The translations under genes were made by a program, and so were the position numbers. The notes under the pieces are model-generated. The model searched no databases. It saw nothing but the letters and a program-made list of their open reading frames with translations, and was not told the DNA's origin. From Terriglobales bacterium (GTDB lineage: Bacteria > Acidobacteriota > Terriglobia > Terriglobales > Acidobacteriaceae), in NCBI GenBank assembly GCA_025934735.1, contig JAICWP010000034.1, positions 1 to 32,725 on the forward strand: a stretch of 32,725 nt of DNA, in the 5' to 3' direction. This document shows positions 12,844-28,954 of the stretch, in pieces. Within the stretch, counting starts at the first letter, position 1; every line of letters begins with the position of its first letter.

Positions 12844-15810
12844 TCAATTCTCCGCCGAACCCTGCGGGGCAGCGCCGCAGCAGCGCTCAATTTCTTCCTG
12901 AACCACGTCGAAATCCACCGGCTTGGAGATATAGGCGTCCATGCCGGCGGCCAGGCAACGCTCGCGGTCTGCGGGCAGCACGGAGGCGGTCATGGCAATG
13001 ATGGGGAGATGGCTCCCGCGGCCGCTTTCCCAACGCCGTAGTTCCGCCGTGGCGGAGAGGCCATCGAGCTTGGGCATCTGGATATCCATGAAAAGCAGGT
13101 CGAAGTGCTGCGACTCGGCAAGGGTCAGAACCTGCCGGCCATCGTCGGCCAGGGTGACGGTGTGGCCCAATTTTTGCAGGAGGCTGAGGATAACGGTGCG
13201 GTTCACGGGATTATCCTCGGCTACCAGGATGGAGAGCTTGCGCCGGGACTCGCGCAAGCTGTGGCGGGTGATGAGAGCGGAAGGCTGGCCGGGATCGTGG
13301 CCCAAGGCGAGGCGAACTGCCCGCAGCAGGTCGGCCTTGTGGATGGGTTTCACCAGGTAGGCGCAAATGCCCATCTCCCGACAGCGGGCGCCATCGCCGC
13401 GCTGCCCGTCGGAAGTGAGCATCATGATGATGGGCTGGGCCAATTGGGGATCGCTCTGCACGCGTTCCGCCAGGGTAAAGCCATCAATGCCGGGCATGCG
13501 CCGGTCAAGCAGCAGGACCCGAAATGGAAGACCGGCACAATGAGCCGAACGCAAGGTCTCCAGGGCTGCCTGGCTGTTTTCCACGGCCACCGGCCGCATG
13601 TCCCACGCGGCAGTGTACTCGGTGAGGATGCGGCGATTGGTGGCATTATCGTCCACGATAAGGATAGGCACCTGTCGCAAGTCCACGACAGCGGGCGCGG
13701 GCGGAGGTGCCGGGTCAACTCCAAAGCGGGATGTGAAGTGGAAGGTGCTGCCGGCGCCTTCGCCGCTTTCCAGCCAGATGCGGCCTCCCATCAAGGTCAC
13801 CAGCCGGGAACAGATGGCCAATCCCAGACCAGTTCCGCCGAACTTGCGCGTGATGCTGGTGTCTGCCTGGGCGAAGGCCTGGAACAGGAGCGCCTGCTTG
13901 TCCGCGGGAATACCGACGCCGGTGTCCACCACGCGGAAATGCAATTCCACGTTCTTTTCATCGCACGAATCCTGGTCCACATACAACACCACTTCGCCGC
14001 GGTCAGTGAACTTGATGGCATTGCTGATGAGGTTGAGAAGGATCTGGCGCAGGCGGCTAGGGTCTCCGGCTAGCCGCTCCGGGATATCCGAGGCGATCCG
14101 ATAAGCCAATTCCAGCCCCTTGCTGTGGGCGCGCAGGGAGAGGGCGTTCATTTCCTGGGCGAGACAATCGGCCAGGCTAAACTCAATGCACTCCAGGTCG
14201 AGCTTGCCCGATTCCACTTTGGAAAAATCGAGAATGTCATTGATGACCTCCAGCAGCTGCTCGCCGGATTGTTTGGCCATGACCAGGTACTCGCGCTGTT
14301 CCGAGGTAAGATCGGTATCCAGGGCGAGGTCGGTCATGCCCAAAACGCCGCTGATGGGAGTGCGTATTTCATGGCTCATGTTGGCCAGGAACTCGCTTTT
14401 GGCGCGATTGGCGGATTCGGCAAGTTCCTTGGCCTGGATCAGATCGGCCTCAGCGCGCTTGCGGGCGCGCTCCTGGGCATCGCGCTGCAGGCGGGCGTGC
14501 AGGACAGGAGCGAGGAACTCGACAATCCGGCTCAGCCGTTCCAGGTCGGCTTCCTCGTAGTCGGTGGTTTTGTTGGCGACCAGCAGCAGGCCAATGAGTG
14601 CATCGTTGTGCAGAACGGGGACACTGAGGCAACGGTTGATGGCTAAGTGTCCTTCCGGCACCTTACCCGGTTGATTGCAGCAGAAGGCCTTTTTCTCGAC
14701 CAGGCTGCGGCCCCACAGGCCGCCCCAAATCTCGCGGCGAAAGCGCAGGCTTTTGTTCGCCACAGCACACTTTTCCCAAGCATCGCTGGTCAGAGAAGGA
14801 ACCACCAGAATGTTGTCTTCGTCAATGTAGCCGAACAAGCCCAGAGAACTGTGCATGACTTCGAGCACGATGTTTAGCACCTCGCCATACATCTGCTCAT
14901 CGGGCACAGTGAGGCAGATGTTGGCCAAGCGGTTTTTCAGCGCAATACGTTTCTCGGACTCGCGCAGGGCGGCTTCCGTGCGCTTGCGATCGCTGATGTC
15001 AATAAAGGTTCCCTCGAGCACGAAAGGCTGATCGCCGCGGTATTCAGTGACGCTCACGTTTTCCAGGATCCACACTGGGGTATTGTCTTTTCGCAACAGG
15101 CAGGTCTCGAAATTCTTCAGAACCCCATCTCGCGCGAGCAATTGCATCGCTTCTTCCAAGTCGCGGGCATGGGCGAAGTAACTGCCCGCATTCTGCCGCA
15201 TAAGCTCCTGGGAGGAGCGATACCCCAGGATACGGGCCCCCGCTTCATTGCATTCCACCAGGCCTTGGTCCATCTGGTAGCGGAAAATGCCGGCCAGGCT
15301 GCGCTCGAACAACAGGCGGTAACGGGCCTCCGACTGTCGCAACTCTTCTTCTGTCCTTTTGTGCTGGCTGATATCAATGCCTACCCCGGCAATGCAGGGA
15401 CTACCCTGGAGAGATACAAGAGCAGAACTCAGATAATAGAGGATCTTTACCCTTTCCTTGGTGAGTAGCGCGGCTTCTGCCTCGGAAGATCCGGTCTCCA
15501 GCGCCTGCTGCACTTTGGCTCGCATGAGTTCGCGGCTCTCTTCGGCAATGCTGTCCATGACGGGCAAACGTTCTATTTCCGCCGCTGAATAGTGCAGGAC
15601 TTCTTCCACTCGCTTGTTCCAGCGGACAAACCTGCCTTCCTGGTCAATGATGATGAACAAGACGGGCAGACTTTCAATCAGGTCCTGGGAGAAGCTTTGC
15701 TCGGACGCCAACTTCCTCTCGGCCTGACGCAAGGCATTCTGTAGGCGGTGAATGTCTTCAAGTGAGGCCGCGATGGGCTGGGGCTGACTGCAGTTGTGGT
15801 CGCGTTGCAT
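12844..15810 (-). CDS. Hybrid sensor histidine kinase (PAS-PAS-GAF-HisKA-HATPase-REC-REC)
   Basis: A 988-residue probably soluble kinase with no membrane segment. Order: PAS 1 (about 40-150), PAS 2 (162-277), GAF (290-437), a helical linker, HisKA with phospho-acceptor His480 in [10 protein letters not shown], HATPase_c with N-box NLISNAIKF (593-601), VDTGVGI and GGTGLGLAI (658-666). Two receiver domains follow: REC1 with Asp769 and Lys821, REC2 with Glu865/Asp866, Asp909 and Lys963. No Hpt domain follows, so a separate phosphotransfer protein is expected. The GAF domain carries Cys348, Cys377-Cys378 and Cys394. The frame extends 78 codons upstream to a TTG, but that stretch is proline- and glycine-rich with no domain; ATG 15810 has AGGA upstream. 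It is followed by trxB in the same operon. Confidence 0.93.
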
Positions 15811-16049
15811 GAAAAGAAATCCTCTGCTGAGGCCCGGCAGGCCAGTCAGCAGGTCAGGCATTCTCCCGTGATGGGGAAGCCCACCCCCTGATAGTAAGAG
15901 TGGGCGCAAGCCGGATTGAGGGACAGTCTGGGCCAGCGTCCCCAAAGTGTTCCCAAGATGGGCCGCATTTTCAAAACAGAGCAGGCGAGTTGGCGTAACT
16001 GACGAGAGGGCGGGTGAGGGCTGCGGAACCTCGTTCGAGCGCAAAACAG
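15811..16049. other. Gap between hybrid kinase and secreted hypothetical
   Basis: This 239-base gap lies between the end of the minus-strand secreted protein (16050) and the kinase start (15810). It is long enough for a kinase promoter and leader, but I see no convincing hexamer pair, known riboswitch or terminator. Part of it stays open in the kinase frame. Confidence 0.4.
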
Positions 16050-16853
16050 CTATTTCTTGGGCACTGTAGCCGGGGCGGCTGCAATCTGGCGAACCCGGGC
16101 CAATTCCTGGGGAACGGTACGGCGAGCCGCCAACGCCCCGCGGTAGGCAGCAAGGATGGTGGCTGCCTGGCGGAACAGAGGCTCGTAGGCGCTCTGGTCC
16201 ACCTTGGGCGCATCCGGCCCGCCGGCGCAGCGCGCCAGCACCACTGAGGGCTTACCGAAGCGCTCCAGGCGAATGCGGTCAGGAGGAGTGCCGGCGGCCA
16301 GTGCCGCGGCCGGGCTGGTGACTGCCGACACCGTTTCGCTGAGCGAAACCTGCAGCAGATCCTTGGGTTCGCGGACAGGAAACACCAGGGTCTCGGCCAT
16401 GTTCTGCTTATCCACGCTGAAGGAATAGAGCGCATTGAGGAAGGGCGAAGCGGCGGAAAATTCGCGGCGAATGCGCACCCAATCGGAAACTGGACCAGCC
16501 GCAGCGGCGCGCTTTCCGGTCAGCGCGGCGGCCGCATCCTGCGAGAGCGTGGTGCGCCCGCGAGCCACCTCGAAATCCGTCCCCCAGCGCGGCTGGGCGG
16601 GGATGCGGGCCAGGGCGGCGGCAATTTCCTTCTGCTCCGCAGGGCTGGGCTGGCATACGTTCAATACGTTCAACCGCACCGGCGGAGTTTTTTCCTGGGC
16701 CGCGGCGCGGGGGACGAAAAAAATCAGGATTGCCACGGAGGCACAGAGGCACAGAGAAAGGCGGAGCCAGGAGTCAGCTCTCAGGAGCCGGGAGTCAGCA
16801 CCGCAAACCAATAACGAGGCTGCCTTACCAACAACCGAGCTGTTCCTCGTCAT
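16050..16853 (-). CDS. Secreted hypothetical protein with a repeat-derived signal peptide
   Basis: About 267 residues, family not recognised. After the signal peptide the mature protein starts near [15 protein letters not shown] and contains one striking element, [16 protein letters not shown]. The rest is helical and alanine-rich, ending in a basic tail. The export signal [18 protein letters not shown] with A-A-A-Q cleavage is encoded partly by a dispersed repeat (16733-16760), the left arm of an inverted-repeat element. The start is uncertain: ATG at 16853, TTG at 16811 (which gives a more normal n-region) or TTG at 16931, all inside the element. It is divergent from the M1 peptidase gene. 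The periplasmic location is inferred. Confidence 0.6.
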
Positions 16854-16962
16854 GGCCGAGGAAATTGAGCACAGAGATTCAGTATCGCCGCTAGGCGACT
16901 GATGACTGAGTCCTGAGTCTTGAGTCCCCAAAGTCTTTCTCCGTGTCTCTGTGTCTCTGTGG
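16733..16962. repeat. MITE-like inverted-repeat element
   Basis: The 28-base arm at 16733-16760 and the reverse complement of 16935-16962 agree at 24 of 28 positions, all differences being transitions. Just inside each arm lie 'GGAGTCAGC'-type repeats in opposite sense (16768-16799 and 16899-16929), so the inversion extends inward. The interior (16800-16898) codes for nothing recognised. The element occupies the gap between two divergent genes. No transposase or clear target duplication is seen. Confidence 0.55.
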
Positions 16963-17098
16963 TGAAGTAATTTTCAAAGGCATTCTAAGCCGAACTCGCA
17001 AACGGGCAAAGAACACCCGAGGTTCCTCGGTTTCCCCTGCCCGCTTACATTGTTGTAAGCTGCTGGCGCACACAAGCGCTCCTACGGAGGTTGGAAGC

Positions 17099-19048
17099 AT
17101 GGACCGGGCTCGCCGCTGGTGGTTCCTGATTATTTCTGTCCTGGCCGGTGCGACCGCAATGTGCGCCGCCCAGCCGATGCCCTCGGCCACGCTCTCCGAC
17201 AAGCCGCTTTCGCAGCGCTGGCTGGACTACAACATTGACGCCCGGGTGGACGCGCAAAAGCACACCGTTGACGCCACCGAGGTGCTCACCTGGCACAACT
17301 TCACCGGCAAGCCCCAGGACACGTTTCCCTTCCACCTGTATCTGAACGCGTTTCAGCCCAAGTCAACGTTCATCCGTGAAACCCATCTTTATGATCTGGA
17401 GTTCGAGTGGAAGCAGAAGAATTACGGCGCGGACGAGGTGAAATCATTTGAGGTAGTGGGGATGGGCGATTTAACCTCGCAGATGCGGTTCATTTCGCCC
17501 GACGACGGAAATCCCGACGACCGCACCGTGTTCCAGGTAAAGCTGCCCAAGCCTGTTCCTGCGGGCGGCCAGGTGCAGTTCAAGATTGTGTTTCACGACC
17601 AATTGCCAGAGGTGCTGGCGCGCACCGGCTACAAGCGCGACTTCATCATGGGCGCGCAGTGGTTTCCCAAAGTAGGCGTGTGGTGGCAGGGAGCATGGAA
17701 TTGCCACCAGTTCCACCGCACCACCGAATTCTTTGCTGAGTTCGGCACCTTCCAGGTCAAGCTCACCCTTCCCCAGAACGAGGTCGTCGGCGCGAGCGGG
17801 GTGGAAGTCTCAAGCGTCAACCACCCCGACGAGACCAAGACGGTGAGCTTTTACGGCGAAGATATCCACGACTTTGCCTGGACCGCCGAGCCCGAATACC
17901 GAGTGATTACCGATACGTTCCAGGGCAGCATGGGCGCGGTGAAGGTTCGCATGCTGGTGCAGCCCGGGCACATGAGCAGCGCGCCCCGCTACCTTCACGC
18001 GCTCAAGGGCACCCTCGACCGCTTCGACAAGTGGTACGGGCCGTATCCCTACAAGCAGATCACGCTGGTGGACCCGCCGCATGGCGCTCTGCAGGCGGGC
18101 GGCATGGAATATCCCACCCTGTTCACGGCTGATACCACCTGGTGGGCGCCGAAAGGGTTGCTGTTTCCGGAACTGGTCACCGAGCATGAATTTGGCCACC
18201 AGTACTGGTACGGCATGGTGGCCACCAACGAATTTGAAAATGCCTGGATGGATGAGGGCATCAACAGCTACACCGAAGTCAAGATCATGGATTCGCTGTA
18301 CGGCAAGGACACGTCCATCCTGAACCTGCTGGGCACGCACATGGGCGAAAGCGACTACCAGCGCCTTTCCTATGATTCAGTGGCCGAGGATGACCCTATG
18401 TCGCGCTTTGCCTGGCAGTACATGAACGGCAATTCGTATGGCGGCATCACCTACGGCAAAACGGCCACTGTGCTGCTCACGCTGGAGAAGGTGATCGGCG
18501 AGCAGACGCTGCAGCGGGCGCTGCAGACTTACTTCATGCGCTATCGCTTCACCCATCCCACGCAAGAAGATTTCCTGAAAACAGTGGAAGAGGTCTCCGG
18601 CAAAGATCTGCGTTGGTACTACGACCAGGCGGTGTATGGCACGCAGGTGATGGATTACGAGATCCTGGGCGTGCGCTCCGAGCGGTCGGACTGGTACAAA
18701 GAGTACCCATCCAAGGCGAAGAAGGGCGAGACGGTCTATCACAACACCGTGCTGGTACACCGCAAAGGTGATTTCATCTTCCCCCTGGACGTGCAGATCA
18801 AGTTCGACAATGGCGAGACGACAACCGAGCACTGGGACGGGCGCGATCGCTGGGTGCGCTATCAATATGACAAGAAGGCGCGCATTGTTTCCGCCGAACT
18901 GGACCCCGAGCACCAGGGGTGGCTGGACAAGAATTCTTTCAACAACAGCTACACGCGTCAAAGCAATCAGGCACCGCACCACAAGCTGGCGGCATATTGG
19001 ACAGTGATTTCGCAATACTGCGCGCAGCTGCTGGCGTGGCTGGTGTGA
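17099..19048 (+). CDS. Secreted M1-family zinc metallopeptidase
   Basis: A 649-residue exported aminopeptidase-like enzyme of the gluzincin clan. The start ATG 17099 has GGAGG 8 bases upstream. The frame continues to 16943, but that extension is a translated dispersed repeat. The signal peptide is RARRWWFLIISVLAGATAMCAAQ. The zinc site is complete: His363, Glu364 and His367 in HEFGH, then exactly 18 residues to Glu386 in WMDEGINSYTE. The exopeptidase-type motif appears as GGMEYP (Glu337) in place of GAMEN, so N-terminal amino-group recognition may be kept. An N-terminal beta domain precedes the catalytic domain, and the C-terminal part is beta-rich. Probably it acts on peptides in the periplasm. 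Substrate is unknown. Confidence 0.92.
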   Translation: MDRARRWWFLIISVLAGATAMCAAQPMPSATLSDKPLSQRWLDYNIDARVDAQKHTVDATEVLTWHNFTGKPQDTFPFHLYLNAFQPKSTFIRETHLYDLEFEWKQKNYGADEVKSFEVVGMGDLTSQMRFISPDDGNPDDRTVFQVKLPKPVPAGGQVQFKIVFHDQLPEVLARTGYKRDFIMGAQWFPKVGVWWQGAWNCHQFHRTTEFFAEFGTFQVKLTLPQNEVVGASGVEVSSVNHPDETKTVSFYGEDIHDFAWTAEPEYRVITDTFQGSMGAVKVRMLVQPGHMSSAPRYLHALKGTLDRFDKWYGPYPYKQITLVDPPHGALQAGGMEYPTLFTADTTWWAPKGLLFPELVTEHEFGHQYWYGMVATNEFENAWMDEGINSYTEVKIMDSLYGKDTSILNLLGTHMGESDYQRLSYDSVAEDDPMSRFAWQYMNGNSYGGITYGKTATVLLTLEKVIGEQTLQRALQTYFMRYRFTHPTQEDFLKTVEEVSGKDLRWYYDQAVYGTQVMDYEILGVRSERSDWYKEYPSKAKKGETVYHNTVLVHRKGDFIFPLDVQIKFDNGETTTEHWDGRDRWVRYQYDKKARIVSAELDPEHQGWLDKNSFNNSYTRQSNQAPHHKLAAYWTVISQYCAQLLAWLV

Positions 19049-19097
19049 GCTAGCCAGCCAGTCAGCTACAAGTACTGAGCTGTTCAGGTGTTTCACA

Positions 19098-20021
19098 ATG
19101 GAAAAGAGCTTTCTTTCTGACGGCAGTTCCCGCGTGTGGCGGCACCAGCGAATCCTTTGGTGGCTGTTCGTGGTTAACCTGGTGCTCGGCCATCTCTCGA
19201 TTTTTGCCATGGTGACGCGCTGGGCGGGCGTGCTGGACCACAGCCTGGCCGCCGACCAGCTTTACCACGGCTTCAATCTTGGCCGGTATATCGAACTGGC
19301 CATGCAACCTGGAATCGGCTTTGGCACGGCCAGCCCCGGCATCGCCGCCTTCGCGATCATCTTTTTCGTGTTCATGCTGTTCGTGACCGGCGGAATTCTG
19401 GAGGCGTATCGCTCGCCTTATAAGATCTCGACTGCCGACTTCTTCCAGGCCAGCGGCGCATACTTCTGGCGGTTCGTCCGCCTGCTGATCATGTTTGTGA
19501 TCGTGCTTATCCCAGTGGCCATTGCGGCCAATGCCATCAAAGACTGGTCGGGCGACCTTTCCACGAACGCGGCCCCGGAGAAGTTGGGATTCTGGGTGGA
19601 CGTGGCCGGCGCGATCGTGATCTGGTTCATTGCCATGTGCCTGCGGCTGTGGTTTGACGTGGCGCAGGTTCACGCCGTAGCCACCGGCGAGCGCGCCATG
19701 CGCCGCGCTATCCGGTGCGCGTTCAGTCTGACCTTCGGGAATTTTGCTGCCTTGTTCCCGCTGTACCTGGTGCCCAGCCTGGTTTCATTTATCGGGATGG
19801 CGGTGATTCTGCTGATCTGGACGAAGGTCCCGGCCGCCAGCGTGGGCGTATCGTTTGTGCTGATGGAAATCTGGATGCTGCTGTGGCTGGGCACGCGGCT
19901 GTGGCAGAGGGCGGGCGAGACCGCGTGGTATCAGCGCACGCAGGTACCGGCGGAAATGCCGGCCATGCCCCCTGTAGTGGCAGGAGACGCAACGCCCGGC
20001 ATGGCAGTGGGAAGTCAGTAG
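19098..20021 (+). CDS. Polytopic membrane protein of unknown function
   Basis: A 307-residue integral membrane protein with about six hydrophobic helices. These are near residues 20-42, 76-100, 124-148, 168-190, 210-235 and 238-262, with a proline- and alanine-rich cytosolic tail. The loops contain aromatic and arginine-rich 'YRSPYKISTADFF' and 'TGERAMRRAIRCAFSL' segments, typical of families with two repeated helical bundles such as DUF4013- or YihY-like proteins. No active-site motif is seen and I do not assign a family. The ATG has AGGTG upstream. It follows the M1 peptidase by 49 bases on the same strand and may be cotranscribed with it. Confidence 0.8.
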   Translation: MEKSFLSDGSSRVWRHQRILWWLFVVNLVLGHLSIFAMVTRWAGVLDHSLAADQLYHGFNLGRYIELAMQPGIGFGTASPGIAAFAIIFFVFMLFVTGGILEAYRSPYKISTADFFQASGAYFWRFVRLLIMFVIVLIPVAIAANAIKDWSGDLSTNAAPEKLGFWVDVAGAIVIWFIAMCLRLWFDVAQVHAVATGERAMRRAIRCAFSLTFGNFAALFPLYLVPSLVSFIGMAVILLIWTKVPAASVGVSFVLMEIWMLLWLGTRLWQRAGETAWYQRTQVPAEMPAMPPVVAGDATPGMAVGSQ

Positions 20022-20148
20022 CTCGGAGTCAGTAGCCCGGAGTCGGAGTCAGTAAAACCATAGGCTGTGGCGCGTTCTGCGTAGAACGCAATCGCCCGTC
20101 ATCCATCTGAAATTGATCTTCTCCGCGCCTCTGTGTCTCCGTGGTGAA
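20012..20148 (+). repeat. Composite dispersed repeat between convergent genes
   Basis: Tandem-like 'GGAGTCAGTAG' units at 20012-20056 are followed by a perfect hairpin GCGTTCT/AGAACGC (20072-20078 and 20083-20089). A 27-base unit at 20118-20144 then matches the right arm of the 16733-16962 element at 23 of 27 bases. The same two repeat classes are adjacent in both places, which suggests relics of one element family. Confidence 0.55.
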
Positions 20149-20157
20149 TGGATTTTC

Positions 20158-21738
20158 TCAGCCCGCCAGAATCGCCTCGGCTTCTTCTCGGTCCACGTCG
20201 CTGACCATGGGCACGCCGCTGATGGCGCTGGCTTCCGGCGTGAGCGCGGCGATATCGGTGCGGTCAATGTACTTGATGCCGAACTTGCGCGCTCCCGCCA
20301 TCAACTGCCGCAGGCCCTGCGCCAAGCGCTGGTAGTAGGTGTAGAAGCCGATGGCGCCCACCGGCAGCTTGTTGAAACGACCGCCGAATTTCTGCCGCAA
20401 CTCGGGCGCGCTCACGAACACTTCGTCCACGGTGGTGCCGAAACGCTCAATGTAAATGGGCAGGCTCTGCTGCTCCATGGATTTTCCGATAGTTTTGGCC
20501 ACCATGGCCGCCGCCAGAGGCGCGCGCGCCATGGCAATCAGCTTGACGTAGGGAGCGCCCAGGGCGAACCCCTTGAAAATCTGATCTTCAAAGGTGAAGC
20601 CGCCAGCCACCGCCACGCTGGGGATGTGAGCGCCCTTCTTCTCCAGTTGTTGCAGGTACTGGCGAAGCAGCGAGTGCAGTTCGATGCCGGGCACACCCCA
20701 CTCGTTCATCATGCGCCAGGGGCTCATGCCGGTGCCGCCGCCAGCCGCATCCACAGTGAGCAGGTCGAGTTCGGCCAGCGAGGCAAATTTCACCGCGCGC
20801 GCCAGGTCGGCGGGCCGGTAGGCGCCAGTCTTCAGGAAAATGTGCTTGGCGCCCAGCTTACGTAACTGTTCCACGCGCGCCAGAAACGATTCCTTGGTCA
20901 CCATGCCTACGCGGGAGTGGCGCTCGAATTCATGGAAGCTGCCGCGCTTGAAAGCCTCAATCACCACGTGGTTGGAAGGGTTGGGCAGCACCACGTAGCC
21001 GCGCTTCTGGAGTTCCTGCGCCTTGGCCAGATCGCGGATTTTTACTTCCCCGCCGATATCCTTGGCGCCCTGTCCCCACTTGAGTTCCACAGTTTCGACG
21101 CCCAGCTTGGCAAGGGCGTATTCCTGCACGCCCAGCATGGTGTCTTCCACGTTGCTTTGCACCGCCACATCACCGTAACCATCCTGCTGCCATTCGCGGA
21201 AACATTTCACGCGCCATTCCAGGTCGGTGCTGGAAATCACCTTTCCACTCTCGAAACGTGATTCCATATCCATGCCAACCACGTTTTCACCAATGGCAAT
21301 CACCGTCCCGGTGATGGCCGCCCCCGCAGCGATGCCGGGCCAGTTATTTTTGGCCACATTGGTGGAGCCCATGGCGCCTAGCGTGAAGGGCAGCTTGTAG
21401 CGGATGCCTGGCGCTTTGCCGATGGTCATTTCCAGGTCCACGTTGGGAAACAGCGCGCGGTTGGAGTCCGCCTCCATGCCAAAGGCGCCGGTAGCGCGGC
21501 CGAGGATGGTGAAATGCGACAAGTCCACCGGGTAATCCTTCTGCGAGGCGGTGGTGATAATGCCGAACGGCTGCGGGTAGATCATCTCCGCGCCCCGATA
21601 GGCGGACTTGCCGATTTCGCACATGCCAATGCACCCATCCACACAAGTGGTGCACATGCCGCTGAAGGGGCTGACCGAATCCTCGGTGCGGTTCTTGGTC
21701 AGCGTGGCGGCGGATGAGTTCAATCGCGTATAGGTCAT
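20158..21738 (-). CDS. FMN-binding glutamate-synthase-like protein, putative catalytic partner of a bifurcating complex
   Basis: A 526-residue protein equivalent to the FMN (synthase) domain of glutamate synthase. Seen: the TIM-barrel phosphate-binding stretch 'TVDAAGGGTGMSPWRMM' and 'VAGGFTFEDQIFKGFALGAPYVK', which bind FMN in this family. It has no N-terminal glutaminase domain and no C-terminal GXGXG domain. Four cysteines form an N-terminal C-x2-C-x3-C-x3-C (29, 32, 36, 40), and the only other cysteine is near residue 183. The usual 3Fe-4S triplet of glutamate synthase beside the FMN is therefore absent and a cluster may be bound at the N-terminus instead. The start overlaps the preceding gene's stop as ATGA, so it is the last of five coupled genes. 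The substrate is unknown; glutamate synthesis is only one possibility. Confidence 0.85.
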   Translation of the reverse strand: MTYTRLNSSAATLTKNRTEDSVSPFSGMCTTCVDGCIGMCEIGKSAYRGAEMIYPQPFGIITTASQKDYPVDLSHFTILGRATGAFGMEADSNRALFPNVDLEMTIGKAPGIRYKLPFTLGAMGSTNVAKNNWPGIAAGAAITGTVIAIGENVVGMDMESRFESGKVISSTDLEWRVKCFREWQQDGYGDVAVQSNVEDTMLGVQEYALAKLGVETVELKWGQGAKDIGGEVKIRDLAKAQELQKRGYVVLPNPSNHVVIEAFKRGSFHEFERHSRVGMVTKESFLARVEQLRKLGAKHIFLKTGAYRPADLARAVKFASLAELDLLTVDAAGGGTGMSPWRMMNEWGVPGIELHSLLRQYLQQLEKKGAHIPSVAVAGGFTFEDQIFKGFALGAPYVKLIAMARAPLAAAMVAKTIGKSMEQQSLPIYIERFGTTVDEVFVSAPELRQKFGGRFNKLPVGAIGFYTYYQRLAQGLRQLMAGARKFGIKYIDRTDIAALTPEASAISGVPMVSDVDREEAEAILAG

Positions 21739-22517
21739 TTCAGTTCTCCTGTGGATGGCGCAACTTTCTGGCCGGCGTCGTGCAGCGCGTGGACCTTGAT
21801 GCCGACCTCATGGCGAAACGGCCCGCTCAGCTCGCAGGTGTGGCATGGCTCCAGAAAGCACATGGCATCGCTGTAACTCTGGAAACATACGGGCGAAAAA
21901 TTCAGGCAGCCGTTGCACAACAGACTCTCGGCCGTGGAGGCCTGGCAGCGGAGTTCGCAAACCGGGCAGGCGTAGAGGCAGGCGCCACACTGGCGGCACT
22001 GCTCGCTGGTCATGCCGAAGGGACGGGCCACGTGGCGGCTCTTGCCCCGGCCGGAAAAACCGATGGCTCCGGCCATCATCTGCTCGGCGCAAATGCGCAC
22101 GCACAGCCCGCACTGGATGCAGTTGGCTTTGGGATCCCAGGGCGCGCCGGGCTGGCCGTCCACCGGTTGGTAGCGACACTGGCGGACGCCATACTCGGAG
22201 GCCAGATCCTGAATGCGCTTCGACTGCGGGCAGGTGGCGACGTAAAGCTCCAACAGCAGGCGGCGCGCGCGCTGCACCCGCATGGAGTTGGTGCGCACCT
22301 TCATTCCTTCTTCCACGCGGTAGCCGCAGGCAGCCACCAGCTTGCTTTTCGGGCCTTCGCCAATCTCCACCAGGCAGAGGCGGCAGGCGCCGTAGGAATT
22401 CAGGCCATCCTCATGGCAGAGGGTGGGAATGGGAAAGTTGTAGAACCGCGCCACTTCCAGCAGCGAGCTTCCGCACTCCGCTTCCACCGCCAGCCCGTTC
22501 ATTGTGATGTGGACCAT
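21735..22517 (-). CDS. HydA/NuoG-N-terminal-like iron-sulfur subunit with Cys-rich tail
   Basis: 260 residues and 23 cysteines. A plant-ferredoxin-type [2Fe-2S] domain with Cys34, 45, 48 and 64 opens the protein, as in NuoG and the HydA subunits of NAD-linked hydrogenases. Two [4Fe-4S] motifs follow: CIQCGLC...C (133, 136, 139, 143) and CRQCGAC...C (174, 177, 180, 184). The His/Cys-ligated cluster of NuoG is not evident. The tail adds Cys187, 191, 201, 204, 211, 220, 225 and 228 in an uncommon arrangement. No hydrogenase H-cluster or molybdopterin domain is present. ATG 22517 is 2 bases after the upstream stop. The likely role is passing electrons between the NuoF-like flavin and the glutamate-synthase-like partner or ferredoxin (inference). 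Confidence 0.85.
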   Translation of the reverse strand: MVHITMNGLAVEAECGSSLLEVARFYNFPIPTLCHEDGLNSYGACRLCLVEIGEGPKSKLVAACGYRVEEGMKVRTNSMRVQRARRLLLELYVATCPQSKRIQDLASEYGVRQCRYQPVDGQPGAPWDPKANCIQCGLCVRICAEQMMAGAIGFSGRGKSRHVARPFGMTSEQCRQCGACLYACPVCELRCQASTAESLLCNGCLNFSPVCFQSYSDAMCFLEPCHTCELSGPFRHEVGIKVHALHDAGQKVAPSTGELK

Positions 22518-22519
22518 GA

Positions 22520-24436
22520 TCAGTGCACCAGTACCGCGTCGAACTTGCACATCTCCAGGCAGGCGCCGCATTTCGTGCACTGCGCCTGGGTGATGATGTG
22601 CGGCTTCTTCTTCTCGCCCAGAATTGCCTTCCCGCTGCAGATCTGCACGCAGGCGCCGCACCCGTTGCACAGCACCGGATCAATTGCAAAGGTGATCAAC
22701 TCGCGGCAGCGGTGCGCCGGGCAGCGCCGGTCGCGGATGTGCGCCAGATACTCGCTGCGAAAATAGCGCAGCGTGGAAAGCACCGGGTTGGGCGCCGTCT
22801 GGCCCAGCCCGCAGAGTGAGCCTTCGCGCACCAGCCAGCTCAGGTCCTGCAGCAGATCCAGGTCTTCTTCCTTGCCCTCGCCTTGGGAGATGCGCGTCAC
22901 AATTTCCTTCAGGCGCTGCGTTCCCACGCGGCACGTAAAGCATTTGCCGCAGGACTCGTCTTCAAGAAACTCGAGAAAATATTTGGCGATGTCGACCATG
23001 CAGGTGTGATCGTCCATCACGATCATGCCGCCGGAACCCATGATGGAGCCGGCCTGGTTGAGGCTGTCGTAGTCCACCGGAAGGTCGAACTTGTCGGCGG
23101 GAATACATCCTCCTGAAGGCCCGCCAGTTTGCACCGCCTTGCAAGCACGACCGTTCGGAACGCCTCCGCCGATTTCGTAAACAATTTCCGCCAGGGTGGT
23201 ACCCATCGGCACCTCAATGAGGGCGGTATTCTCGATGTTGCCCACCAGGCTAAAAACCTTCGTTCCTTTGCTCTTTGCGGTTCCAATCTGCGAGAACCAG
23301 TCGCCGCCGCGCTGCACAATGACCGCAATGTTGGCCCAGGTCTCGACGTTGTTGATGCAGGTGGGCTTGCCCCACAGGCCGTGCTGCGCGGGATAGGGCG
23401 GGCGCTGCTGCGGCTCCCCGACTTTCCCTTCAATCGAGCGGATGAGCGCTGTTTCCTCCCCGCAGACGAAAGCGCCCGCCCCTTTCACAACCCGTATTTC
23501 AAAACTGAATCCGGAATCGAAAATGCTCTGGCCCAGCAGGCCGGCGTCTTGCGCCTGGCGAATGGCCTGCTTCATGCGCATGACCGCCAGCGGATACTCC
23601 TCGCGCACATAGATGATGCCCTCGTGCGCGCCCATGGCGTAGCCGCCAATGGTCATTCCTTCCAGCACGCTGTGGGGATCGCCCTCGAGCACACCGCGAT
23701 CCATGTAGGCGCCGGGATCGCCTTCATCGGCGTTGCAGATGACGTACTTGGGCTCGCCCTGCGCATCGCGTACCGCCTGCCACTTCACGCCCGTGGGGAA
23801 GCCGGCGCCGCCTCGGCCGCGCAGCCCGCTGCGCTTCACTTCGTTCAAGATTTCTTCTGGTGTGTGCTTGCGCAACGCATGCCAAAGCGCGTGATAACCG
23901 CCGCGGGCGATGTACTCTTCCAAATTGTCGGGATTGATGATGCCGCAATTGCGCAGCACAATGCGCAGCTGGCGTTTGAAAAGCGGCAGATCTTTGTAGG
24001 CAGTGAGGCCATCCATGTGGCCGTTATGGGGAACACAGTAGTTGACGTGGGCGCCATTGAGCGTATTCTCATCGCCCGGCATCATGGCCAGCGCCCATTC
24101 CCGCTTGACCTCAGGGATGGCGCGCACAATTTCCCGCGCCCGGCCCGGCTTCATGCGGCCATAGGTGACGCGCGGGCGCCCGGGAATGCAGATATCGAGC
24201 AGCGGCTCCTGCGAACACCAGCCGATGCAGCCGGTTTCGGTCACCTGATAGGGCAACTTGCTGTTGGCCACCTCTTCGCGCACCGCATGCAGGACTTCTT
24301 CCGCGTCGGCCGCCAGCCCGCAAGTGGCCGTGCCGATCATGATCTTCGGCTCGCTGGGATAAAGCAGATCGCGGCCCTGGCGCATGGCCTGGTGCAAGTC
24401 TTCGAGATTGACCAGGCGATGCGCCGTGCTGATCAT
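22520..24436 (-). CDS. NuoF/HydB-like flavoprotein subunit (BfuB-type) with C-terminal ferredoxin domain
   Basis: 638 residues, the architecture of HydB in electron-bifurcating hydrogenases. The N-terminal thioredoxin-like domain has only three of the usual four [2Fe-2S] cysteines (39, 70, 74). The NuoF core holds LRGRGGAGFPTGVKW (205-219) for NADH/FMN, CNADEGDPGAY (234-244), GAGAFVCGEETAL (319-331) and the N3-type [4Fe-4S] site Cys496, 499, 502 and 542. The C-terminal 2x[4Fe-4S] domain has Cys590, 593, 596, 600 and 620, 623, 626, 630. Complex I NuoF lacks that last domain, so this is a hydrogenase/bifurcating-type subunit. It overlaps the NuoE-like gene by 4 bases (ATGA). It would oxidise or reduce NAD(P)H. 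Confidence 0.95.
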   Translation of the reverse strand: MISTAHRLVNLEDLHQAMRQGRDLLYPSEPKIMIGTATCGLAADAEEVLHAVREEVANSKLPYQVTETGCIGWCSQEPLLDICIPGRPRVTYGRMKPGRAREIVRAIPEVKREWALAMMPGDENTLNGAHVNYCVPHNGHMDGLTAYKDLPLFKRQLRIVLRNCGIINPDNLEEYIARGGYHALWHALRKHTPEEILNEVKRSGLRGRGGAGFPTGVKWQAVRDAQGEPKYVICNADEGDPGAYMDRGVLEGDPHSVLEGMTIGGYAMGAHEGIIYVREEYPLAVMRMKQAIRQAQDAGLLGQSIFDSGFSFEIRVVKGAGAFVCGEETALIRSIEGKVGEPQQRPPYPAQHGLWGKPTCINNVETWANIAVIVQRGGDWFSQIGTAKSKGTKVFSLVGNIENTALIEVPMGTTLAEIVYEIGGGVPNGRACKAVQTGGPSGGCIPADKFDLPVDYDSLNQAGSIMGSGGMIVMDDHTCMVDIAKYFLEFLEDESCGKCFTCRVGTQRLKEIVTRISQGEGKEEDLDLLQDLSWLVREGSLCGLGQTAPNPVLSTLRYFRSEYLAHIRDRRCPAHRCRELITFAIDPVLCNGCGACVQICSGKAILGEKKKPHIITQAQCTKCGACLEMCKFDAVLVH

Positions 24437-24948
24437 GAGCGCACCTTCTCCGGGCTGGCAGCGATCTTATCCACCGTGGCGGGCTTCCTGCGCGGGTGGT
24501 AGCGATTGACAATGCCCCGCACCTTGGCCTGATCCAGGTGAGCGAAGGTGTCGCGGTCCACTCGCATGACGGGCGCCAGGCCGCAGCATCCCAGGCAGCG
24601 CACCGGCTCCACCGTAAACTCCAGATCGGGGCTGGTGCCGCTTAGGCCGGCTCCGGTTTCCGTCTGCGTACGTTCCAAAACCAAATCGCCGCCGCGCACG
24701 TGACAGGCGGTTCCCAGGCAAACCTGCACCAAATGCCGGCCTCTGGGCTTCAGGCTGAAGCAGCGGTAAAACGTGGCTACCTGATACACGTCGGTGACCG
24801 GAACGTGCAGCTTGCGAGCTACCCGGCGCAGAGCTTCTTCCGGCAGGTAGGAGAATGCGGCCTGAATCTCTTGCAAGATGGGAATCAGGTTGGCGCGTTC
24901 GTCCTTAAACTGCGCCAGCAGCGGCTTGACGGCTTCCATTTCCGGCAT
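24433..24948 (-). CDS. NuoE/HydC-like [2Fe-2S] subunit (BfuC-type)
   Basis: 171 residues with the thioredoxin-like [2Fe-2S] fold of the NuoE family. Ligands are Cys77 and Cys82 in CLGTAC, and Cys118 and Cys122 in CLGCCG. The helical N-terminus 'LIPILQEIQAAFSYLPEEALRRVARKL' and 'VYQVATFY' are diagnostic. The frame extends to a TTG at 25032, but that would overlap the small upstream gene. The ATG at 24948 has AGAGG upstream and is preferred. The stop overlaps the NuoF-like start by 4 bases. It is expected to form the flavin/iron-sulfur core with that subunit. Confidence 0.94.
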   Translation of the reverse strand: MPEMEAVKPLLAQFKDERANLIPILQEIQAAFSYLPEEALRRVARKLHVPVTDVYQVATFYRCFSLKPRGRHLVQVCLGTACHVRGGDLVLERTQTETGAGLSGTSPDLEFTVEPVRCLGCCGLAPVMRVDRDTFAHLDQAKVRGIVNRYHPRRKPATVDKIAASPEKVRS

Positions 24949-24989
24949 AGCGGCAGCCTCTTGTCCTGGCCGACTTCTTGGCCGTTTGG

Positions 24990-25238
24990 CTACTCCTTCG
25001 AACTGCGGCGCCACAAGACGTGCTTGTTCCAACCGTGCACCTTGCTGGCGAAATCGCCTGGCTTGGGCGGCTTCTCTTCGGGCGCACCCACCGCCACCGT
25101 CTCTTCCGAGCGATTAAGCTCGGCGACGATCTTCTCCGGCAAATCAGGGTCTTCCAACCGAGCAACAATTTCGGTTCGCGACATTTGTCCGTGACCTTGG
25201 CAGAAGGGACAGGGCAGCAGGGGTTCGGATGGCGGCAT
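24990..25238 (-). CDS. Small CPFC-motif protein, first gene of the NuoEF-like operon
   Basis: An 82-residue protein of unknown function. It has one CPFCQGHGQ knuckle (Cys10, Cys13) of the zinc-ribbon or DnaJ-CxxCxGxG kind, then an acidic helical region 'EIVARLEDPDLPEKIVAEL' and a basic C-terminus. With only one CxxC pair it may bind metal as a dimer. The ATG at 25238 has CGAGG about 7 bases upstream. It ends 41 bases before the NuoE-like gene on the same strand. The position suggests a maturation, assembly or regulatory role for the complex, but nothing in the sequence proves this. Confidence 0.65.
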   Translation of the reverse strand: MPPSEPLLPCPFCQGHGQMSRTEIVARLEDPDLPEKIVAELNRSEETVAVGAPEEKPPKPGDFASKVHGWNKHVLWRRSSKE

Positions 25239-25536
25239 GGGCGACCTCGTTTCGCGCTTCCGGCGGCGCTTACGCCGGGCTCCGCGGCGATTTGATTACA
25301 AGCCTTTTATGAAGCACGCCGCTGTGATGGCAGTCACCAGACGCGGTGAGGCGTGAGCAGGAATTGCGTGATGGAGGCGGATGTTCGGCATGGCTGAAGC
25401 CATGCTCTGATACCAACCACGTACTCAGGATAATCAAACGATGAGAGTGCCCAGCAATCCCAATACGGAGTCGATACGAGGAAGTTGAAGCGAAGGCGGC
25501 AACTGACAACTGAGTACCAGGAACTGAGAACTGGCC
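25239..25536. other. Intergenic region with a hairpin and dispersed repeat
   Basis: These 298 bases separate the phosphatase gene from the NuoEF-like operon on the same strand. They contain a perfect 8-base hairpin GCATGGCT/AGCCATGC at 25388-25405 with a 2-base spacer, and an 'ACTGAGAACTGG'-type repeat at 25498-25534. The operon promoter must lie here if it is independent, but no clear hexamer pair is visible. Confidence 0.45.
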
Positions 25537-27648
25537 CTACCGAGCGCGGGCCAGCACCAGGGTGATGTCGTCGGGCTGCTCACGGCCGCCGATCCAGTCG
25601 TCCACGGCGGCGGTAACGAGTTCAGCAATGCGAGCCAGTGATTGATGGCGGTGGTCGCGCACCAGCCCAATCAGGCGCTCCTCGCCAAATTCGCCGAAGT
25701 CATTTTCCGGCTCAGTGACACCGTCGCTGAAAGCAAGGAAGAGGTCGCCCTGATGCAGTTCGACCGAGCTCTCCTCAAAAGAAAGCGCGTCGAACAGGCC
25801 GACCACGGTACCGCCACAGTCGAGGCGGCGCACGCTGCCGTCGGTGGCAATCAGCACCGGGGGGAGGTGCCCGGCGTTGGTGTAAGTGAGCCGGCGTGAG
25901 CTGCCGTCGTAGTTCCCTAGAAACAAGGTGGCGTACTTCTCGGGCGGCGTGCTCTCGTACAGCCGCCGGTTCAGCAGGCCCACCAAGGTGGCGGGCGAAA
26001 GCAAGCCGCCGCCCCGCGCGGCGTGCTCCCGGGAAGAATTTACTTGCGCACCCACCGCCAGGGGCACGGACAGAGGCACCGGTTCGAGGGCGTAGGCGCG
26101 CAGGGCCGCGTGCAGAGTCGCCATGAGCAGGGCCGCCGAAATGCCTTTGCCGCTCACGTCGCCCACGGCGATGGTCAGCCGGTCCGGAGGCTGGGGGAGA
26201 AAATCGTAATAGTCGCCGCTGACGGTCCGCGCCGGGCGGCAGAATCCATGCAGCTCCAGCGATTCCAGCTGGGAGATCTGCCGGGGGAAAAGCTGCGCCT
26301 GCACCTCCTGGGCGATGGCCAGCTCGTTTTCCATGCGCTGCTTTTCCTTCTGCTCCGCCAGCAGGCGCTGGATGGATTCGGTCATGGAATTGAACGAGCC
26401 TTCCAGCGCAGCCAGCTGGTCGCGGCTCTTCACCACTATTCGGTGACTGAAGTCGCGCCGATTAATGTGTTGGGTGGCCACATAAAGCTGGGCCACGGAC
26501 CGGGTAATGGTGCGGGTAAGGCGGATGCCGATGAGCAGGGCAACCAACTCGATGAGGATGAAGCTCAGGGCAATGGCACCCAGCAGAGTGGCCCAACCCG
26601 CGGCAAACTTGCCCAGCGCCGAAAAGAGCTGATCGTAGAGGCGGGAGGAGCGGGTGCCGACTACGAGTATGGCGGTGGACTCCCGGTTGTTCCCTTCCCA
26701 ATTCACCACGGAAACGGTGGTGAAAAAGTGCACCTCACGATCCAAGCGGCCGGTGGGCGGTGGTACCTGGCCTACGCTGGTCGGCTGCACCTTCTCGCCG
26801 CCGATTTGCACCCCGTTTGTGTCAACTTTCAGATTGGAATCTGAGGAGGCTTTGGACTGGTCGCTTTTCCCGGGAGCGACGTCCGGCTCTGTTAAGTTGA
26901 GCTCACCCGTATACAAGCTGATCTCGCCCAGGTCGGCGGCAATCCTCTGCAGCAGGGATTCACCCAGGGGTTCGCTGGAGATAACCGTGAGTTGATCTCC
27001 TCCTACGGGCACGCGGGCCACCGCCCGTAAATAGAGCTGGCCGCGGTCGCGGGCCAGATCGCTGAAGCTTCCGGGGATGAAAGCAGGCGGAGGGCGCAGG
27101 GTGGCTTCGGTTATGGCCTTCCCGCGAAACCAGGCGGCCACCTGGCGTCCGGTTGCCTTGCCCTCGGCCGCCAGCATGCTTGTGGCATTGGGCCGCTCGC
27201 CACGCCGCAGCTGCCCGGCCAGGGCATCCGCCAGCGTACCGTTCGCGGCTTCCAGGCTCTTCAGTTCTGACCGGATATCGCCCGTGACAATGAAGGTGGC
27301 GAACTGTCCGGCGAAAATGTAGCCAGCGATGCCCGCCATCGCGATCAGGAGCAGGATAGGCACCACTGCCATGAATACGTAGGTGACGATCAGGCGGTTG
27401 CGCAGGCGCCACATCAGGTCATTGCGCAGCCAGCGCACAAAAAGCACAAAAAGCAGGATGGCGGCGATGAAAGTAAGGAAATCAATCCAGCCCGCCAGGC
27501 TGGAGCCGGCTTTCGGGCCAGCCAATTTCAGCAGCCGCTGCAGCAGGTACAGAAAGAGATCAAAGGCCAGGATGTACAGGGTCAGCCGAGCCAGCAGGCT
27601 GCGCGGAAACCAGCGCCAGGTCGTGATTTTCTGCCGCACGGAGGCCAT
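25537..27648 (-). CDS. Membrane-bound SpoIIE-type (PP2C) serine phosphatase with HAMP domain
   Basis: A 703-residue sensor phosphatase. Membrane helices lie near residues 18-42, 52-72 and 86-118, an external sensory region spans about 120-345, and a further helix is at 350-373. Next come a HAMP domain (374-428), a short coiled coil (430-455) and a PP2C/SpoIIE catalytic domain (465-701). Metal ligands are visible in SGDYYD (Asp479, Asp482), GDVSGKG (496-502), SDGVTE (641-646) and QPDDITLV (691-698). Such RsbU-like enzymes dephosphorylate anti-sigma-factor antagonists in partner-switching stress pathways. No STAS or RsbW-type kinase gene is nearby, so the partner is elsewhere. The gene is divergent from the thiolase. 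No strong ribosome site precedes the ATG. Confidence 0.92.
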   Translation of the reverse strand: MASVRQKITTWRWFPRSLLARLTLYILAFDLFLYLLQRLLKLAGPKAGSSLAGWIDFLTFIAAILLFVLFVRWLRNDLMWRLRNRLIVTYVFMAVVPILLLIAMAGIAGYIFAGQFATFIVTGDIRSELKSLEAANGTLADALAGQLRRGERPNATSMLAAEGKATGRQVAAWFRGKAITEATLRPPPAFIPGSFSDLARDRGQLYLRAVARVPVGGDQLTVISSEPLGESLLQRIAADLGEISLYTGELNLTEPDVAPGKSDQSKASSDSNLKVDTNGVQIGGEKVQPTSVGQVPPPTGRLDREVHFFTTVSVVNWEGNNRESTAILVVGTRSSRLYDQLFSALGKFAAGWATLLGAIALSFILIELVALLIGIRLTRTITRSVAQLYVATQHINRRDFSHRIVVKSRDQLAALEGSFNSMTESIQRLLAEQKEKQRMENELAIAQEVQAQLFPRQISQLESLELHGFCRPARTVSGDYYDFLPQPPDRLTIAVGDVSGKGISAALLMATLHAALRAYALEPVPLSVPLAVGAQVNSSREHAARGGGLLSPATLVGLLNRRLYESTPPEKYATLFLGNYDGSSRRLTYTNAGHLPPVLIATDGSVRRLDCGGTVVGLFDALSFEESSVELHQGDLFLAFSDGVTEPENDFGEFGEERLIGLVRDHRHQSLARIAELVTAAVDDWIGGREQPDDITLVLARAR

Positions 27649-27772
27649 GAGAGATCCGCTCAGAGTGATTATAGACGCGACTATCTTGAGTGGGGCGCCC
27701 GTTCATTGTTCCCGAACCGTCAGAATGCCCGTGCCACTATCGAATGCTAGACTGAAAATACGAGGAGCTCAC

Positions 27773-28954
27773 GTGCCCGACGTCTTCATCATTTCCGCGG
27801 TGCGCACGCCGATCGGGAAATTCGGCGGTTCGCTCGCCTCGCTGACCGCCGCCGATATGGGCGTGATCGCCGCCAAGGCAGCGCTGGAGCGTGCCGGCGT
27901 GCACCCGGAGCAGGTGCAGGAAACGATTTTCGGCAATGCCCGCCAGGCCGGCGGCGGTCCTAATCCCGCCCGCCAAGTTTCCGTGCGCAGCGGCGTGCCC
28001 CAGGAAGTCCCCGCCTACACCGTGAACATGGCCTGCGCCTCAGGCATGAAGTCCATCGCGCTCGGCTATCAGGAGATCGCCGACGGCAACCTGGAGTGCG
28101 TACTGGCCGGCGGCACTGAATCCATGTCTCGCCTGCCCTACTACCTGGATGGGGCGCGCTGGGGCTATCGCCTGGGCAATGCCGACCTGGTGGACGGCAT
28201 GTACCGCGACGGGTTCTTCTGCCCATTGGCCAAGATGGTGATGGGCGAAACCGCCGAGGTCCTGGCGGAACAATACAAGATTTCTCGCGAAGAACAAGAC
28301 CAGTTCGCCCTCTGCTCGCAGACCCGGGCGGCTGCGGCCGTCAACTCCGGGCGGCTGCGCGATGAAATTGTGCCGGTGACAATCGAAAGCAAAAAGGGCA
28401 CGCAAGTGTTCGAGCGCGACGAACACCTGTTCCCCGATGCCAGCCTGGACAAAATGGCTAAGCTTTCGCCGGTGTTCTCCAAGACGGGCACGATCACAGC
28501 GGCCAATTCCTCTGGCATTACGGATGGCGCGGCAGCGCTGGTGCTGGCATCGGAAGGATTTGTAAAGCGCAACAAGCTGAAGCCCCTGGCCCGCATTGTG
28601 GCGGCCACCTCGGCGGGTGTGGACCCGCGCACCATGGGAATCGGGCCGGTCCCGGCTATGCAGAAACTGAAGGAGAAGACTGGCTTAGGGGTGAACGACT
28701 TCGAGGTCATCGAACTGAACGAAGCTTTTGCCGCCCAAGTCCTGGCCTGCGACCGCGAACTGCGCTTCGACCGCAGCCGCTTGAACGTGAACGGCGGCGC
28801 CATTGCTCTGGGTCACCCCATCGGCTGCACCGGCGCCCGCATCACGGTCACGCTGCTGCACGAAATGCTGAAGCGCAAGGCTCACCGGGGCGCGGCCACC
28901 CTCTGCGTCAGCGGTGGCATGGGCATGGCCCTGGCTTTGGAAAGCGCCGCTTAA
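27773..28954 (+). CDS. Thiolase, probable acetyl-CoA C-acetyltransferase
   Basis: 393 residues, the usual thiolase length. It condenses two acyl-CoA (acetoacetyl-CoA synthesis) or cleaves 3-ketoacyl-CoA. The nucleophile is Cys88 in NMACASGMKS. His348 is in NGGAIALGHPIGCTGAR and the acid/base Cys378 in TLCVSGGMGMA. The frame extends to 27383 antisense to the phosphatase gene, but the GTG at 27773 has GAGGAG 6 bases upstream and gives a standard 'PDVFIISAVRTPIGKFGG' N-terminus. The sequence cannot separate biosynthetic (AtoB/PhaA) from degradative (FadA) use. No beta-oxidation or PHB genes are adjacent. Confidence 0.95.
   Translation: MPDVFIISAVRTPIGKFGGSLASLTAADMGVIAAKAALERAGVHPEQVQETIFGNARQAGGGPNPARQVSVRSGVPQEVPAYTVNMACASGMKSIALGYQEIADGNLECVLAGGTESMSRLPYYLDGARWGYRLGNADLVDGMYRDGFFCPLAKMVMGETAEVLAEQYKISREEQDQFALCSQTRAAAAVNSGRLRDEIVPVTIESKKGTQVFERDEHLFPDASLDKMAKLSPVFSKTGTITAANSSGITDGAAALVLASEGFVKRNKLKPLARIVAATSAGVDPRTMGIGPVPAMQKLKEKTGLGVNDFEVIELNEAFAAQVLACDRELRFDRSRLNVNGGAIALGHPIGCTGARITVTLLHEMLKRKAHRGAATLCVSGGMGMALALESAA

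Follow-up and report, generated by a model that had tools for sequence, protein, structure and literature searches.

A conserved gene in the stretch of DNA analysed here (32,725 nucleotides of a soil acidobacterium of the Terriglobales, hereafter the window) encodes a predicted secreted protein, and all in-frame ATG, GTG and TTG codons upstream of its mature part (TTG 16931, ATG 16853, TTG 16811 and GTG 16736) lie inside a dispersed repeat, as the original prediction stated; the question is where the beginning of this gene comes from. The explanation that we hold to be probable, though some way short of certain, is that an inversion of ~16733-27743 cut the head off the gene and that the adjoining repeat arm now supplies part of its signal peptide. 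One end of the inversion would coincide with the outer edge of a hairpin repeat, one of a dispersed family and presumably older than the inversion, and the other would fall inside the codons of the signal peptide. The gene would have been deprived of its -10 box, its GTG start and the three codons that follow, and this head would remain 11 kb away, between a gene for a 703-aa protein and a thiolase gene. The arm, which is free of stop codons and mostly hydrophobic, would then stand in frame ahead of the half of the signal peptide that survives, giving a chimeric signal that might start, for example, at TTG 16811. The features on which this argument draws are collected in Table 1.

Table 1. Features of the window that bear on the origin of the signal peptide.
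Feature	Position	Strand	Remarks
Conserved part of secreted protein	16053-16697	-	215 aa; stop codon ends 16050
Native signal-peptide remainder, AxA cleavage site	16698-16732	-	directly abuts arm
Left arm of hairpin element	16733-16760	+	complement in secreted-protein frame reads LSLCLCASV
Two direct repeats	16763-16799	+	GGAGCCAGGAGTCAGC and a 94% copy; TGAGTC repeats 16907-16926 opposite
Right arm of hairpin element	16935-16962	-	24/28 match to left arm, inverted
Box A, promoter-like TAGAAT	16982-16987	-	TTGCCC 16 nt upstream; outside right arm
M1-family peptidase	17099-19048	+	beside secreted gene through inversion
703-aa HAMP/SpoIIE protein	25537-27648	-	secreted gene's divergent neighbour in relatives; now at far end
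Likely stranded head	27721-27743	+	CAGAAT 27721-27726, GTG 27731-27733, then CCA CTA TCG A
TAGACT, probable thiolase -10	27748-27753	+	common to G010 (GCTAGACT)
Thiolase	27773-28954	+	adjoins M1 peptidase in G010
Inverted segment relative to G010 and G068	16733-27743	.	element at left end, no arm at right

No Pfam or NCBIfam family matches the secreted protein. Its mature part is matched in 53 of the 150 relatives searched with the own genome counted, that is in 52 of 149 others, and in 153 of 398 genomes of the family, the start-region counts that follow covering the 52 and a set of named loci. In all 52 of the other genomes the best in-frame start (50 GTG, 2 ATG) stands 5-8 nt past a box that reads TA[AGC]AAT in 51 of them and TATCAT in one. 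A set of named loci, which are the best 80 of 107 relatives and mostly carry Acidobacteria labels such as Candidatus Sulfotelmatobacter or Terriglobia, has box and start in each of the 79 that are testable (78 GTG, 1 ATG), the 80th being too short; 19 of these 80 duplicate genes of the 52-genome set, and together the two sets comprise 111 distinct orthologues. Since the choice of starts was guided by the box the conservation of the arrangement is partly circular; in a scan with a box matrix made from the same 52 loci the start site takes the top rank in 51 and comes second in the remaining one. The relatives thus have, at box-chosen starts, the -10-like box a few nucleotides before the start codon that marks leaderless genes, and the native gene was probably leaderless. 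The window copy differs, as it has no in-frame start 5-8 nt past either of the boxes that a scan of the two junctions returned, which were just 16982-16987 and, weakly, 27721-27726. By eye the N-termini of the 52 relatives resemble signal peptides, they are unlike that of the window and have no repeat, and the window's signal is found without the repeat in none of them.

The repeat itself is largely as it had been described. The inverted 28-base arms at 24/28 identity are real, in that no match as good arose when the 230-base element was shuffled 300 times by dinucleotide, and the minus strand of the element has a predicted fold of -102.9 kcal/mol (z -4.47). The GGAGTCAGC repeats were said to face each other, but GGAGTCAGC occurs twice in one orientation (16770 and 16791) and it is a related motif, TGAGTC, that occurs three times on the other side of the element (16907, 16914 and 16921). 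The label MITE-like holds for the terminal inverted repeats and not for copy number: a 301-nt query against the own genome, of which 40 of 55 candidates were scored, returned itself and 13 arm-sized matches in place of the anticipated full-length copies with target duplications. The outer flank of the right arm is TTCA, the commonest flank among family members, and by eye neither this element nor any other listed pair shows a target duplication at its outer flanks. With neither a second full-length copy nor a target duplication seen, the element is named here a dispersed hairpin repeat and not a MITE. In Rfam the only match to 16600-17200 up to an E-value of 1 is the HOTTIP_3 lncRNA, at 13.1 bits against a threshold of 50, which we take as chance.

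What is dispersed is the arm. With up to 3 mismatches allowed, the 24-mer CCACRGAGRCACRGAGRCACRGAG is matched 56 times across the 4.94 Mb of the genome, at least two of the matches being a single site in two registers, against 17 for a reversed-pattern control, and an arm copy at up to 1 mismatch is present in 38 of 396 sampled genomes of the phylum, own genome counted. Adjacent arms up to 320 nt apart are convergent in 11 of 12 cases in the own genome and in 16 of 17 in loci from other genomes, their spacer lengths vary and some arms are solitary; convergent arms with unequal spacers suggest that many copies form hairpins. Six of the 11 convergent pairs in the own genome have TCA/TGA at both outer edges, and the element at 16733-16962 has it on the side of the M1 peptidase only. 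Co-variation of the arms within pairs, as would be anticipated for a selected hairpin, is unsupported both in the own genome (identity 18.1/24 against 18.6 when shuffled, p 0.98) and in the loci of other genomes (20.1 against 20.0, p 0.28). Read outward the arm is free of stops in all three frames and mostly hydrophobic, one frame giving LCLCASV, and read inward it is charged; 36 outward frames of at least 80 codons run beyond the 56 arm matches. A solitary arm is also present in the window at 20121-20144 (-), just past the 3' end of the gene at 20158-21738, and elements at other loci (L016, L023, L026, L027, L078, L092 and others) enclose a second short repeat, GATTGA-like and in one or both orientations, which parallels the GGAGTC/TGAGTC inside the 16733-16962 element. 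In four relatives (L067, L172, L191 and L193) family arms are furthermore found upstream of the box of this same secreted-protein gene with its native start intact, in L067 at ~10 nt from the -10 box. Literature searches for the repeat, by its DNA sequence and by the peptides that its frames encode, returned no paper, the subscription literature being largely outside their coverage.

The inversion is seen in the gene order. In the window the secreted gene (-) is followed by the M1 peptidase (+), genes 19098(+), 20158(-), 21735(-), 22520(-) and 24433(-), the 703-aa gene (-) and, outside the segment, the thiolase (+). In contig C16 of the relative G010 the order is TrxB(-), secreted gene (-), then 703-aa gene (+), further genes, a homologue of 19098(-) and M1(-), then thiolase (+), so that three of the seven inner genes are present with identical outer neighbours on both sides. 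In contig C35 of G068 the 703-aa gene, 24433, 22520, 21735 and 20158 lie on one strand followed by 19098 and M1 on the other, and the seven window genes are exactly reversed against it in both order and strand; the thiolase did not turn up in the stretch from G068, and G010 is alone among the stretches examined in having the M1-thiolase neighbourhood. Because 66 of the 111 distinct orthologue loci have the 703-aa gene adjoining the secreted one and divergent from it, it is the window order that is probably derived. A 1066-aa hybrid histidine kinase (12844-16044, -) separates the secreted gene from the TrxB-like gene in the window; as these two are adjacent in G010, G068, G041 and G058, the kinase has the appearance of a lineage-specific insertion.

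Short dispersed repeats can mislead assemblers, and with a short repeat at one junction and a genus represented by a single genome the contig might in principle have been misjoined at the repeat. We regard such an artefact as highly improbable: a false inversion calls for errors at both junctions, the arms are just 28 nt long and the junction between the 703-aa gene and the thiolase has no arm at all. That lack of an arm also counts against homologous recombination between two repeat copies as the simple cause of the inversion.

At the left junction the native codons meet the arm edge GTGG at 16732/16733, and the alanine codon ahead of the native remainder spans this edge (16733-16731). At the right junction the promoter of the 703-aa gene, GATTATAG, is common to G010 and G041; the sequence past it ends in TTCATTGTTCCCGAACCGTCAGAATGCCCGTGCCACTATCGA and is followed by ATGCTAGACTG, which contains the thiolase box that G010 also has. 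The interval 27649-27746 aligns with that between the 703-aa gene and the secreted gene in G010, the nearest relative, through its GTGCC start, with a score of 34, against a mean of 20.1 (sd 3.8) for 1000 single-base shuffles (p<=0.003); it has no alignment with the M1/thiolase interval (p 0.90), the comparison with G041 is not significant (p 0.13), and the gene-side half alone aligns weakly with G010 (p 0.066 by shuffles, 0.089 against random window segments). Joined to the body of the gene the sequence at 27721-27743 gives an in-frame reading, and it is likely to be the stranded original head, though an imperfect one, with C for T at the first position of the -10 box and a 4-nt spacer, neither of which occurs in the 52 relatives or the testable named loci.

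The first model of this locus was a different one, in which the element was inserted between box A and the body of the signal peptide, and within its codons; box A (TTAGAATGCC-TTTG-AAA-ATT) would be the native -10 with its start, and a separate inversion would have broken between this promoter and the 703-aa gene. Of the two sites box A is the better match as a box, and it is the top one in the 511 nt scanned, with a score of 12.1 that 14 of 366,858 background positions attain (a tally that includes overlapping loci and box A itself), as compared with 4.3 for the stranded box and a minimum of 5.8 in relatives; an independent scan likewise gives TTGCCC-16-TAGAAT there, and it lies ~20 nt from the right arm. 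With the start context included the order changes slightly, box A scoring 7.9 (reached at 15 background positions) and the stranded head 8.6 (11 of 178,916, itself counted), both below the relatives (minimum 10.1, median 25.2); both sites have a 4-nt spacer, and the joint score was therefore made to permit it. That spacer and the TTG start of box A are found neither in the 52 relatives nor in the 79 named loci, the model needs two independent events at the same spot, and no target duplication is visible at the ends of the element. The surroundings of box A align neither with the region upstream of the gene (G010 p 0.62, G041 p 0.39) nor with the interval between M1 and thiolase in G010 (p 0.51), and this alignment test thus favours neither model. 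It was the gene order and the junction alignments that demoted insertion to a rival, which now seems unlikely. In the inversion model box A could be what drives the secreted gene now. Its own TTG frame stops at 16891, inside the element, and so cannot yield the secreted protein directly.

LSLCLCASV is, as had been noted, the reading of the minus strand in the frame of the secreted protein, but it is only in part the predicted hydrophobic core: the arm appears to supply half of the core, and the remainder, including the cleavage site, is native. Starting from TTG 16811 the reading combines a basic stretch with a hydrophobic core and an AAA/Q site, in the pattern of a predicted signal peptide, with a peak hydropathy of 2.99 that lies within the range of the relatives (1.79-3.47, median 2.46). 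The value falls to 1.98 for a start at GTG 16736 and to 1.97 for the joined native signal, whose low peak and length at the short end weigh against the preferred reading. By eye TTG 16931 is the sole start with a good ribosome-binding site (GGAG, 7 nt), with a pre-region of 78 residues. The repeat-headed chimera is put forward as the candidate export signal of the secreted protein; recruitment in the sense of the original prediction holds as far as the in-frame upstream sequence comes from the repeat, but the contribution would be partial and its history, going by gene order, that of an inversion.

It may instead be that the beheaded gene is silent, or that its product stays inside the cell, and that the frame stays open through the arm simply as a result of the repeat lacking stops; we judge this possible but not the reading to be expected. 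The native promoter and start are lost, the TTG frame of box A ends within the element as described above, and long outward frames are common through the arms of this family. However, the chimeric stretch does have a hydrophobic core and an AxA site, and the 215 conserved codons are intact and unaccelerated against relatives. The mean identity of the secreted protein to 128 outgroup loci, two sets pooled with some genes counted twice, is 53.2%, compared with 52.1 for G010 and 51.9 for G041, and that of the TrxB control (117 loci) is 76.6 in the window, 78.5 in G010 and 76.7 in G041. The protein is not evolving faster than its relatives, yet the inversion could be recent, and a recent one would leave no trace there. 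As dS among the nearest relatives is large (0.97, 2.08 and 3.25), dN/dS was set aside.

The secreted gene would be one of two in this genome with a repeat-encoded signal peptide: inspection by eye of the own-genome loci with the 56 arm matches recognised one further case with the same pattern. On contig 49 (L268:1-4317, -) an open reading frame at least 1439 aa long starts MRNPFTTETLRYGENLNPMRLSTRFSLCLCVSVVMLTGLARAQ, a start that overlaps the stop codon of the preceding gene, and both arms are coding; distant homologues on the own contig 26 and in G049 have different, ordinary-looking signal peptides. Among loci of other genomes with 57 arm matches seven frames pass the hydropathy filter and the arm was recognised as a signal core in none of them; in L097, L112 and L152 a signal peptide of native appearance lies just downstream of the arm. 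On the own contig 48 (L093, arms 19533 and 19584) a gene that we take to be DUF488-like has its nearest start codons at the arm edge. A tentative wider suggestion, which we would not yet expect to hold, is that the family repeatedly provides export signals, re-heading secreted genes cut by rearrangement or insertion at its edges, of which the window gene and the contig 49 protein would be living examples.

On the preferred reading, inversion followed by use of the arm, this locus would be a readable case of a broken gene regaining a candidate export signal with a dispersed repeat as the patch, both halves of the old signal sequence being apparently still visible 11 kb apart. It also implies that start-codon annotation is unreliable next to such repeats.

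That a repeat can provide an export signal has already been proposed in print. In Yersinia the RU-2 (YPAL) repeat is described as contributing to the signal peptide predicted for YPO1552, and similar proteins in other genera have unrelated signal sequences (Delihas 2007, PMC2759123; PMC2229807); further repeat-containing frames with predicted signals are YPO2495 and YE2643 (PMC2759123). The window differs from that case, as described there, in its repeat family and its phylum, and in having an inversion end at the repeat and the likely old head of the gene 11 kb away. The Rickettsia palindromic elements (RPE) are likewise translated in frame within conserved genes (PMC2229807), but as described they are inserted in protein reading frames, whereas the repeat of the window would give an N-terminus and possible start codons. 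The REP palindromes, described as tagged with GTAG/CGTC, are also short dispersed bacterial palindromic repeats (PMC3733652). The arms of this family are based on an octamer (CACRGAGR). Leaderless genes with a TANNNT box are listed for 3 of 3 Acidobacteria genomes in a table of PMC3160421, and the native start of the relatives, with a -10-like box ending 5-8 nt before it, fits that type as presented there, an arrangement that the window gene does not have. With respect to this cited literature what is new is the repeat family, a second case within one genome and the evidence of an inversion end at the repeat cutting the gene. The enterobacterial precedents would gain a counterpart in a different phylum and a different repeat family, with two genes of a single genome.
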